DNA of 64,000 nt from Defluviicoccus sp. Lineage in GTDB: Bacteria; Pseudomonadota; Alphaproteobacteria; MPNO01. Below are positions 1,767 to 5,748 of the stretch, one piece after another; positions within the stretch are counted from its first letter, which is position 1; each line of letters starts with the position of its first letter. The stretch spans positions 1 to 64,000 of the forward strand of contig JAJDVM010000311.1 in NCBI GenBank assembly GCA_022826125.1, written 5' to 3'. The notes beneath the pieces were generated by a model that was not told the origin of the DNA, searched no databases, and saw nothing but the letters and a program-made list of their open reading frames with translations. Made by a program: the position numbers and the translations under genes.

Positions 1767-2708
1767 TCAGCCGATCTCCCCGCGCAGCCCGGCCAGCTCT
1801 TCCATCTGGGCCGCGTCGTCGCTGCCGGTGACGCGGACGCAGAGGTGGCTCGCGCCGGCCTCCACGAAGCCGCCCAGCCAGCCCGCCACCGCGGCGCGGT
1901 CGCCGGCAAAGGCGTACTGCTCGGCCCGGATGCGTTCGGCCGGCAGATTGTAGTAACGCGAAAGATAGGAATCGAGTTCCGCTTCGGCCGCTTTCGGATC
2001 GTCGTTTATCGCCACCGTGACATAGGCCGCGCCGACGATCTCCGCCGGATCGCGGCCGGCTTCCTCCGCGTCCGCCTTGAGCGCCCGCCAGCTCGCGCCC
2101 CATTCGGCGCCACCGCCGGGGCCCGAGGGGAACCAGCCGTCGAAATTGCGCGCGCACCGCCGGAGCGCCGCCGGCACCCCGCCGCCGCCCCAGATCTTCG
2201 GCCCGCCCGGGGTGTGAGGCTCCGGCGCCAGCGTCGCGCCCTCCAGCTTCCAGCGCCCGTCCCAGTCGACCGGCTCGCCGGACCACAGCGCGCGGCACAG
2301 GCGGAGCCCTTCGAGCATCCGGCCGATGCGCTTCTCGAACGGGACGCCGGCGGCCTCGAACTCGGCACGGATCGCCGGCACGTCGCGCGCCGTCCCCGCG
2401 CCCAGGATGAAGCGCCCGTGCGAGATCCGGTCGAGGGTCGCGAGCTGATGCGCGAGCAGCGTCGGGTTCCTCAGCATCGGCAGCAGCACCGCGGTGCCCA
2501 GCGCGATCCGTTCCGTGCGCGCGGCGATCGCGGCCAGCAGGGTGATCGGGTCGTGGCGCGGCTTGGCGATCAGCGAATCGCCGATCCACACCGAATCGAG
2601 CCCGACCTGCTCGGCCACGTCGCCCAGTTCGAGAATGCGGTCGGTGTCGTGCACCCCCACCATCACGCGCTCGCGGGTGGGGAGGAGATAGCCGAGCTTG
2701 AGGGTCAT
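1767..2708 (-). CDS. LLM class flavin-dependent oxidoreductase (copy A)
   Basis: A 313-residue bacterial luciferase-like TIM-barrel protein. The family uses FMNH2 or F420H2 in monooxygenation or hydride transfer. Visible family features are the LGYLLPT start, VGLDSVWIGDS, RTERIALGTAV, HGRFILGAG and a late RVTGSDDAAQMEEL. It aligns without gaps to the next gene upstream (2770-3711), differing at roughly 45 positions, so the two are recent tandem duplicates. The ATG at 2708 has AAGGA upstream. It sits between its twin and the cupin dioxygenase in one operon. No flavin reductase lies nearby, so the reductant source is unknown. Confidence 0.88.
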   Translation of the reverse strand: MTLKLGYLLPTRERVMVGVHDTDRILELGDVAEQVGLDSVWIGDSLIAKPRHDPITLLAAIAARTERIALGTAVLLPMLRNPTLLAHQLATLDRISHGRFILGAGTARDVPAIRAEFEAAGVPFEKRIGRMLEGLRLCRALWSGEPVDWDGRWKLEGATLAPEPHTPGGPKIWGGGGVPAALRRCARNFDGWFPSGPGGGAEWGASWRALKADAEEAGRDPAEIVGAAYVTVAINDDPKAAEAELDSYLSRYYNLPAERIRAEQYAFAGDRAAVAGWLGGFVEAGASHLCVRVTGSDDAAQMEELAGLRGEIG

Positions 2709-2769
2709 GACGCGTCCTTGGCTGAAGAGGCCGCAACTTGCCGGAATCGCCGGGCGGCGGCAAACGGCC

Positions 2770-3711
2770 TCACCCGATCCGATCGCGAAGCGCGGCTAGC
2801 TCTTCCATCTGGCGCGCGTCGTCGGAGCCGGTGACGCGGACGCAGAGATGGGTGCAGCCGGCCTCCACGAATCCGGCGATCCAGCCCGCCACCGACGCGC
2901 GGTCGCCGGCGAAGACGTATTCTTCGGTGCGGATGCGTTCGGCCGGCAGGTTGTAGTAGCGCACCAGGTAGGAATCGAGCGCCGCCTCGGCGGCTCCCGG
3001 GTCTTCGTCGATCGCCACCGTGACATAGGCGGCGCCGGCGATCTCCGCCGGGTCGCGCCCCGCTTCCCCGGCATACGCGCGCAGGGTCTTCCAGTCGGCG
3101 CCCCAATCCGCGCCGCCGCCGCGGCCGGACGGGAACCAGCCGTCGAAATCGCGCGCGCACCGCCTGAGCGCCGCCGGCACCCCGCCGCCGCCCCAGATTT
3201 TCGGGCCCCCAGGGGTCACGGGCTCCGGGGCGAGGGTTGCGCCTTCCAGCTTCCAGCGCCCGTCCCAGTCGACCGGTTCGCCGGTCCACAGCGCACGGCA
3301 GAGGCGGAGGCCCTCCAGCATGCGCCCGACGCGCTTCTCGAAGGGCACGCCGACGGCCTCGAACTCGGCCCGGATCGCGGGCACGTCGCGTGCGAGGCCG
3401 ACGCCCAGGATGAAGCGTCCGCGGGAGATCCGGTCGAGGGTAGCGAGCTGGTGGGCGAGCAGGACCGGGTTCCTCAGTATCGGCACCAGGACCGCCGTCC
3501 CGAGCGCGATGCGTTCCGTCCGCGCGGCGATGGCGGCGAGCAGCGCGATCGGATCGTGGCGCGGCTTGGCGATCACCGAATCGCCGATCCATACCGAGTC
3601 GAGGCCGACTTCCTCCGCGAAGTCGCCGAGTTCCAGAATACGATCGGTGTCGTGCTTGCCCTCCATCACGCGCTGGCGGGTCGGGAGGAGATAGCCGAGC
3701 TTCAGGGTCAT
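2770..3711 (-). CDS. LLM class flavin-dependent oxidoreductase (copy B)
   Basis: A 313-residue luciferase-like monooxygenase and tandem paralogue of the 1767-2708 gene, of the same length and with no indels. The core pieces are shared: VGLDSVWIGDS, AKPRHDPI, DRISRGRFILG, DWDGRWKLEG. Substitutions are spread over the protein and include the N-terminal RQRVMEGKHD against RERVMVGVHD. Spacing is 25 bases after the amidohydrolase C-part and 61 bases before copy A, consistent with one transcript. Two closely related copies may form a heterodimer, as in bacterial luciferase, or may have diverged in substrate. Family certain, substrate unknown. Confidence 0.88.
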   Translation of the reverse strand: MTLKLGYLLPTRQRVMEGKHDTDRILELGDFAEEVGLDSVWIGDSVIAKPRHDPIALLAAIAARTERIALGTAVLVPILRNPVLLAHQLATLDRISRGRFILGVGLARDVPAIRAEFEAVGVPFEKRVGRMLEGLRLCRALWTGEPVDWDGRWKLEGATLAPEPVTPGGPKIWGGGGVPAALRRCARDFDGWFPSGRGGGADWGADWKTLRAYAGEAGRDPAEIAGAAYVTVAIDEDPGAAEAALDSYLVRYYNLPAERIRTEEYVFAGDRASVAGWIAGFVEAGCTHLCVRVTGSDDARQMEELAALRDRIG

Positions 3712-3736: not shown

Positions 3737-4027
3737 CTACTCCGCCGCCTCGCGCGCGCGGCCGGGGACTTCGAGGTCGAAGAAGTCCACCGCGTTGGCG
3801 TGGAGCAGGCGGAATTTCTGCTCGTCGGTCAGCCCTTCGCTCGCGACCAGCGCGTCCGGACGTCCGTAGTCCTCGCAGTCGAAATGCGGCAGGTCGGACG
3901 ACCACGCGACCGCCCGGCCGCCGAAGAAGTCGATCGTCGTCGGCAGGATCGCCTCCTCGGCCTCGACGGTCACCAGACAGCGCTCGCGGAAGGTTTCCAG
4001 CGGGTCGGCGGGCATCTCGGGCATCAT
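3737..4027 (-). CDS. C-terminal part of amber-split COG2159 amidohydrolase
   Basis: A 96-residue ORF in the same reading frame as the 4028-4894 ORF and separated from it by exactly one TAG codon. It carries the conserved end of the COG2159/ACMSD-type amidohydrolases, including SSDLPHFD, whose Asp is expected to be an active-site metal ligand, followed by SEGLTDEQKFRLLHANAVDFF. Without it the N-terminal part should not be catalytic. The ORF begins with ATGATG immediately after the stop, and GGGAGG lies about 12 bases upstream, so reinitiation as a separate subunit is possible. The alternatives are a nonsense mutation or a base-call error. Confidence 0.75.
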   Translation of the reverse strand: MMPEMPADPLETFRERCLVTVEAEEAILPTTIDFFGGRAVAWSSDLPHFDCEDYGRPDALVASEGLTDEQKFRLLHANAVDFFDLEVPGRAREAAE

Positions 4028-4894
4028 CTAGCCCATGCCCTCCCATTTCTCGTGCAGCTTCGAGATCCAGAACGGCGCCCAGCCGGCGCCCGCCTCGAAG
4101 AACCCGACCTTGAGCTCCGGATGCCGGTCGAGGATGCCGTACGAAAGGATGCCGGCGGCCGAGATCATCGCCTCGCAGACATGGGTGGTCATGTGATAGG
4201 GCGCGAAGCGGCCGGCGAAACGCTCCGCCGCGAGGCCCCGGTCGGCGATCACCGCGGCCCCGGTATGGGTGCAGAACGGCACGCCGAGCGACGCCATCGC
4301 CTCGAAGAACGGGTCGTAGAAGGGGTGGTAGAGCGGCTGCGGGCCGTGCACCCCGGACGGCGCGAAGATCGCCACCGCGCCCAGCGTCTCGACCGCGTGG
4401 ACCGCTTCCGCCGCGGCCAGCGCCGGGTCGGCGAGGGGAACGGTCGCCGTGTTCCAGAGCCGCGACGAATCGGCCGCGCAGAACTCGGCGACATAGCGGT
4501 TGACGCCCCGGCACACCCCGGCGGCGGCGGCGCCCGGCTGGATCGAGCCGGAGAACAGGCCCTGGCTCGGGAAGATCACCGAGCCGTAAACGCCCTGCTC
4601 GTCCATCAGCGCGAGTCGCGCCTTGGGATCGAAGCCGACCGGGTCGCCTTCGGCGAATTTCATCGGCCGCCGGTCGGGATCGCGGTAGGCGCCCGGCACG
4701 ATCGTCTCGCCCCACGACATCCCCGGCGGCTGCGGCATGTACCGGCCGCCGATGTAGAACAGCTCCGAAGTCCCCTGGTCGAGCATGCGCGGCGCGTAAT
4801 GCCGCCACGGCCTGTCGATCAACTCCGCGAGCCGGTCGAGGTCCTCGCTCAGATGGCTGTCGGCATCGACGATGGGGTAGTCGGGCGTGGGCAT
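4028..4894 (-). CDS. N-terminal part of amber-split COG2159 amidohydrolase
   Basis: A 288-residue N-terminal three quarters of a metal-dependent hydrolase of the amidohydrolase-2 family. This family includes ACMSD, gamma-resorcylate and 5-carboxyvanillate decarboxylases. The N-terminus has the metal-binding IVDADSHLSED. The middle has THTGA and HMTTHVCEA, and the end has HPELKVGFFEAGAGW. The normal protein continues another 90 or so residues, which are encoded in frame just after the TAG (3737-4027). The ATG at 4894 is set by AAGGA and lies 17 bases after the TfdA-type dioxygenase. In this operon a decarboxylase or hydrolase acting on an aromatic acid is plausible. Possibly a pseudogene. Confidence 0.8.
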   Translation of the reverse strand: MPTPDYPIVDADSHLSEDLDRLAELIDRPWRHYAPRMLDQGTSELFYIGGRYMPQPPGMSWGETIVPGAYRDPDRRPMKFAEGDPVGFDPKARLALMDEQGVYGSVIFPSQGLFSGSIQPGAAAAGVCRGVNRYVAEFCAADSSRLWNTATVPLADPALAAAEAVHAVETLGAVAIFAPSGVHGPQPLYHPFYDPFFEAMASLGVPFCTHTGAAVIADRGLAAERFAGRFAPYHMTTHVCEAMISAAGILSYGILDRHPELKVGFFEAGAGWAPFWISKLHEKWEGMG

Positions 4895-4911: not shown

Positions 4912-5748
4912 TCACACCGGGACGTCGCCGGCGATGCCGATGCGGCGCATCAGACGGGTCTGGTCCGCCGGGAAGTCGCGCCGCGCGTGCTGGGCGCAGC
5001 GGTTGTCCCAGACGATCAGGTCGCCCTTTCGCCAGACATGCTCGTAAACGCAATCCGGGCGCTCGATGGCCGCGAACAGGGTTTCCAGCAGCGCCGCGCC
5101 GTCGGCGGGCGGCAGGTCGAGGATCTCCTCGGTCATCAGCCGGTTGACGTAGACCGCCTTGCGGCCGGTCTCGGGGTGGGTGCGGATGACGGGATGAACC
5201 GCCTGCGGCAGCCCCGCGCGCTCCAGGGTCCCCGATTTCACCTGGGTCGCGTAATCGTAGATGTTGAAGGCGCGCAGGCCCGCCAGCCGCTCCTTCGTCT
5301 CGGCGTCGAGCGTCTCATAGGCCCGGTAGGCATTGGCGAACAGCGTCTCGCCGCCCCGGTCCGGGATCTCGACGGCGTAAAGAACGGTCGCCATCAGCGG
5401 GCAGTCGAGAAACGCCGAATCGGAGTGGAACTGGAGCTCTCCGTCGGGCAGGAAGCCGACCGGCCTGCCGTTCTCGCGGATATTGGTGATCAGGAGGACG
5501 CGCCGGTCGGGGTTGTGCTTCATGCTGCGCTCGTCCGGCGCCTGGGTCTCGCTGGTGTCGCCGAAATACCGGGCGAATCGGGCCTGCGCCTCGACGTCGA
5601 GCGCCTGGCCCCGGAACACGAGAACCAGATGCTCCAGCCACGCCGCGCGGAGCGCGGCGACGGTCGGCGCATCGATGGGCCGCGAGAGGTCGAGCCCGCG
5701 TATCTCCGCCCCGAGCGCGGCGGAGAGCAGGACGGTTCGGAACGTCAT
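4912..5748 (-). CDS. TauD/TfdA family Fe(II)/2-oxoglutarate dioxygenase
   Basis: A 278-residue member of the taurine/2,4-D dioxygenase family, which hydroxylates or cleaves ether, sulfonate or other bonds using 2-oxoglutarate and O2. The HxD metal motif is in QFHSDSAF (about residue 107). The distal His lies in NRCAQHARRDF (about residue 255), followed by the 2-oxoglutarate-binding RLMRRI. The length is typical. It is the first gene of the minus-strand operon running to the cupin at 572. The ATG at 5748 follows a GGAG. A REP-like palindrome pair separates it from the TRAP binding protein gene. Substrate not predictable. Confidence 0.88.
   Translation of the reverse strand: MTFRTVLLSAALGAEIRGLDLSRPIDAPTVAALRAAWLEHLVLVFRGQALDVEAQARFARYFGDTSETQAPDERSMKHNPDRRVLLITNIRENGRPVGFLPDGELQFHSDSAFLDCPLMATVLYAVEIPDRGGETLFANAYRAYETLDAETKERLAGLRAFNIYDYATQVKSGTLERAGLPQAVHPVIRTHPETGRKAVYVNRLMTEEILDLPPADGAALLETLFAAIERPDCVYEHVWRKGDLIVWDNRCAQHARRDFPADQTRLMRRIGIAGDVPV

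Follow-up and report, generated by a model that had tools for sequence, protein, structure and literature searches.

A single in-frame TAG interrupts an amidohydrolase gene

Within the window, by which we mean the whole 64,000-nucleotide stretch of Defluviicoccus sp. DNA analyzed here, the minus strand between 4894 and 3737 very probably carries an ordinary single-chain gene of the Amidohydro_2 family (PF04909) in which a conserved tryptophan codon, TGG at position 289, reads TAG. Judging from sequence comparison, this change would be either a genuine mutation or variant or an error of the consensus. The interrupted gene would encode a metal-dependent TIM barrel of the ACMSD/decarboxylase-like type.

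Inspection of the minus strand reveals 288 open codons (4894-4031), a TAG (4030-4028) and 96 open codons (4027-3740), all in one register. This agrees with the earlier note, which described two in-frame open reading frames (4028-4894 and 3737-4027) with TAG alone between them and ATG ATG next. The N-terminal piece (4031..4894, minus strand; 288 aa) begins with an ATG just 5′ of which lies an AAAGGAA-like ribosome site. The interrupting TAG (4028..4030, minus strand) is codon 289 of 385, and the C-terminal piece (3740..4027, minus strand; 96 aa) begins with ATGATG and runs to the gene's own terminator, a second TAG at 3737..3739. Under table 11 no single open frame encodes a complete amidohydrolase chain, as the TAG at codon 289 intervenes. 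When that TAG is read as X, PF04909 matches across the junction over profile positions 11-289 with 86.9 bits, compared with a gathering score of 26.4, and the two pieces taken alone match positions 11-187 (N-terminal, 62.2 bits) and 220-289 (C-terminal, 22.8 bits). Because both pieces belong to one Pfam family and the joint match spans the junction, the locus is best described as a single gene interrupted once.

Once the TAG is read through, the gene is a full-length match to a family that includes ACMSD, gamma-resorcylate decarboxylase and PtmU3-like enzymes, with a D-x-D-x-H start, internal histidines and an SSDLPH motif. The motif had been assigned to the second piece, and we locate it there at 3884..3901 on the minus strand (residues 332-337). 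From ACMSD-type amidohydrolases, we take its Asp334 to be the metal ligand expected after the last barrel strand. The closest solved relative by sequence, searched with the intact orthologue L009, is PtmU3 (6omp), and none of the NCBIfam families matches the amidohydrolase. What sets the window gene apart from Amidohydro_2 enzymes is that its coding sequence is broken by a TAG at a conserved tryptophan.

The rest of the operon looks intact, as had been noted, and the neighboring genes match their Pfam families well. These include two luciferase-like monooxygenases, a cupin, a TauD-type dioxygenase and DctP. Immediately downstream lies a luciferase-like monooxygenase (2770..3711, minus strand; PF00296, 199 bits) and immediately upstream a TauD/TfdA-type dioxygenase (4912..5748, minus strand; PF02668, 216 bits). 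We scanned the window for coding-like neighbors that share a frame and have a single stop between them, and three further pairs emerged: tatC/serS, yajC/secD, and uvrA with a gamma-glutamylcyclotransferase-like gene. Named from their translations, these are ordinary adjacent genes, which leaves the amidohydrolase as the only known split gene of the window. Separately, the two adjoining luciferase-like monooxygenase genes (1767-3711, minus strand) share 86% identity over 313 residues, and the pair is apparently a tandem duplication inside the amidohydrolase gene cluster.

Intact orthologues carry tryptophan at the interrupted codon

To place the TAG in context, the window protein was compared with the only two close orthologues found, L009 and L010. 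L009, from an uncultured alphaproteobacterium and the sole relative from the public genome set, is 71% identical; L010, found in the family to which the window's genome belongs, is 67% identical. Each is unbroken over its full length of 385 aa. Both align gap-free with the window protein and end at the same residue, in keeping with the earlier remark that the second piece has the normal C-terminus of its family. Codon 289 is TGG in both orthologues, and a paralogue from the same genome as the window (L002, 57% identity) also has Trp at this position. In an alignment of these four sequences, in which W was placed at the window TAG by hand, the Trp289 column is invariant, the window copy excepted.

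A single transition converts TGG to TAG, and TAG at codon 289 is seen in one genome only. Since the orthologues are unbroken with TGG at the site, the window gene has the form of a young pseudogene or interrupted coding sequence. The change is lineage-specific, with a young mutation or variant the most likely origin and a consensus error next. Alignment of relatives had been proposed as a check on whether the split is conserved, and both orthologues prove to be unsplit. A sense codon at 4028-4030 in a close strain had likewise been named as the finding that would reduce the case to an ordinary gene or an assembly error; sense codons are indeed present, but only at genus or family distance (67-71% identity).

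The gene itself is sparsely distributed. At E<=1e-60 the gene is missing from the four genomes of the same genus, no same-species strain carrying the gene was found, and genomes sampled across the order, class and phylum yielded no orthologue beyond L010. Neighbors of the window gene were not found beside L009 or L010 in the DNA compared, where the surroundings differ. On this distribution the gene is apparently accessory, being missing from same-genus genomes at that threshold, rare in the wider samples and without common neighbors. For an accessory gene, loss by nonsense mutation would be plausible and unremarkable.

Two other amidohydrolases of the same genome, L003 and L006, also appeared to hold in-frame stops; these are normal C-terminal stops, where the search alignment overran the end of the gene.

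The sequence beyond the stop is preserved

The part of the gene 3′ of the stop was examined for decay. Among the three orthologues compared, the window copy alone is changed at 18 of the 284 residues that precede the stop and at 4 of the 96 that follow (Fisher p=0.61); the corresponding GC3 values are 0.93 and 0.92. The downstream part is thus without detectable decay, so the stop would be young, not real, or bypassed, as read from one genome in which synonymous sites are near saturation. We infer that the stop is recent. The TAG probably arose as a real and recent nonsense mutation or as a population variant, with the reservation that a fully kept 3′ part also fits functional read-through or reinitiation.

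The same lack of decay would be expected if the organism's gene were intact and the TAG were a base-call or consensus error, or a minority variant that the assembler made the consensus. The assembly of the bin is fragmented into 377 contigs, with 8.2% contamination, and the closest paralogue is broken too. There is also a precedent in Mycobacterium smegmatis, where 28 of 73 resequenced interrupted genes proved to be sequencing errors (PMC1852416). No miscalls were among those errors, however, in a study whose method favored indels (PMC1852416), and a lone substitution at a non-repetitive site is atypical of assembly error. We regard an error of this kind as unlikely, and a genuine nonsense change remains the preferred reading. 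As for the paralogue (L002:1501-2600; G000 C190:12262-13373), its frameshift falls at a run of nine G, after which reading resumes in another register; this may be a homopolymer error, a mutation or slippage.

Interrupted genes are common in bacteria, and many are errors (PMC1852416). Bacterial in-frame stops are mostly short-lived, and some may be read through (PMC7918605). Interrupted coding sequences and young pseudogenes described previously (PMC1852416; PMC2916853; PMC7918605) likewise combine a single in-frame stop with intact orthologues and little or no downstream decay, and set against them the window gene has nothing distinctive. The case counsels caution: even where a stop neatly meets a start and a Shine-Dalgarno-like motif precedes them, the simplest reading of a lone in-frame stop in a metagenome-assembled genome is an isolated nonsense change or an error.

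The ATGATG next to the stop derives from inherited coding sequence

To understand what a genuine stop would mean for the enzyme, the break was placed on an AlphaFold model, which was used solely for this purpose because it is weak (mean pLDDT 57, built from four sequences). In this low-confidence model the break falls in a loop between predicted barrel strands 6 and 7, and the C-terminal piece holds predicted strands β7 and β8. If the stop is genuine, translation would end after 288 residues and leave a chain lacking strands 7-8 and the SSDLPH aspartate, presumably a metal ligand as in ACMSD-type enzymes. Given these missing parts, the first product is expected to be inactive, except for whatever activity trace read-through or reinitiation might provide. 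The 96-residue piece by itself cannot form a barrel.

These considerations bear on the proposal that the locus encodes a two-polypeptide enzyme, in which ribosomes terminate at the TAG and reinitiate at the adjoining ATG to give chains of 288 and 96 aa that assemble one barrel. The TAG abuts ATGATG, the 96-aa part shows no detectable relaxation, and a GGGAGG (4039..4044, minus strand) formed by the codons TGG-GAG-GGC lies 11 nt 5′ of the second ATG, close to the distance of about 12 bases given in the earlier note. Were the proposal true, an enzyme would have been split in one mutational step. Inspection of the orthologues argues against it. Both are single-chain, and at the residues corresponding to TAG-ATG-ATG, L010 reads W-M-M and L009 reads W-T-M. 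The W-M-M of L010 indicates that the ATGATG was inherited as coding sequence, two Met codons that follow a Trp. GGGAGG was looked for in L009 and L010 and is missing from both. With the ATGATG inherited and the motif in neither relative, the split did not arise as a device for reinitiation and is not conserved, and in the predicted structure the cut would fall inside one barrel domain.

How unusual the motif is can be gauged from the window itself, where a comparably strong motif precedes an internal in-frame ATG in 3 of 256 cases within genes, and a looser motif in 27 of 256. A strong motif before an internal ATG is therefore uncommon, and the succession of GGGAGG, TAG and ATG counts, mildly, against a simple nonsense change or error. 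We consider it a mild coincidence; reinitiation would be physically possible, and selection for the motif appears to be without support. Taken together, a two-polypeptide enzyme is very unlikely. The narrower case, in which one substitution converted W-M-M, with a GGGAGG present by chance, into adjoining stop and start codons and so produced a real, fixed stop and a translationally coupled two-chain amidohydrolase, is likewise very unlikely.

TAG serves as a terminator in the window

A further possibility is amber read-through or recoding, whereby an amino acid is inserted at the stop (Trp, for instance, through near-cognate pairing) so as to regulate expression. In-frame stops under purifying selection have been reported across bacteria, with read-through proposed for them (PMC7918605), and here the frame 3′ of the stop is intact. 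TAG, however, terminates tatC, serS and the amidohydrolase gene itself, and of the window's 44 coding-like open reading frames with 100 codons or more, 13 end in TAG, tatC and serS included. No CTA anticodon, which reads UAG, is present among 49 tRNA hits in the genome, in a bin that is incomplete and where ARAGORN left one tRNA unassigned. On terminator use and tRNA content we reject global reassignment of TAG.

Another observation that seems to favor read-through, and that counts against a simple nonsense change or error, is that release factor 1 (prfA, TIGR00019) has no above-cut-off match in the bin. It is present in all four same-genus genomes and adjoins hisS in two of them (G003 and G001). 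The essential gene hisS also has no above-cut-off match in the bin, and a DNA search with the prfA-hisS block of G003 found nothing of the block there. Because the neighbor of prfA is missing too, we judge the absence to be a likely bin gap, most simply explained by a contig that is missing from this bin, which is reported to be 100% complete. Read-through of this TAG is accordingly ranked as highly improbable.

Of the four choices set out in the earlier note, a nonsense mutation and a base-call error are thus favored, and a two-polypeptide enzyme and amber read-through are disfavored. As far as the available sequences allow, neither of the latter two appears to have positive comparative support: the relatives are unsplit, with ancestral coding sequence at the ATGATG and GGGAGG in neither, TAG acts as a terminator in window genes, and none of the genome's tRNA hits has a CUA anticodon.

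Several translation genes in the bin were noted along the way. A tRNA-like gene (L050:98-174; G000 C121:11092-11164, minus strand) has an apparent 8-nt anticodon loop, to which ARAGORN assigns the 4-base anticodon 'ggca', and no full-length counterpart of it was found among 26 relatives. Two separate low-scoring tRNA hits (L058 and L059; G000 C313 and C38) are called tRNA-Sec (TCA) by ARAGORN, which may reflect selenocysteine use, a mixed bin (8.2% contamination) or a false call. Two candidates for release factor 1 were also rejected. A 267-bit match is RF2, as it carries the RF2-type SPF motif, and a small match where contig C164 ends is recognized, by its resemblance to the first, as the C-terminus of another RF2. 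The bin thus holds RF2 once as a complete gene (C260:10938-11933, L068) and once as a C-terminal part that borders a contig end (G000 C164:6259-6486, L069), an arrangement that appears consistent with contamination of the bin.
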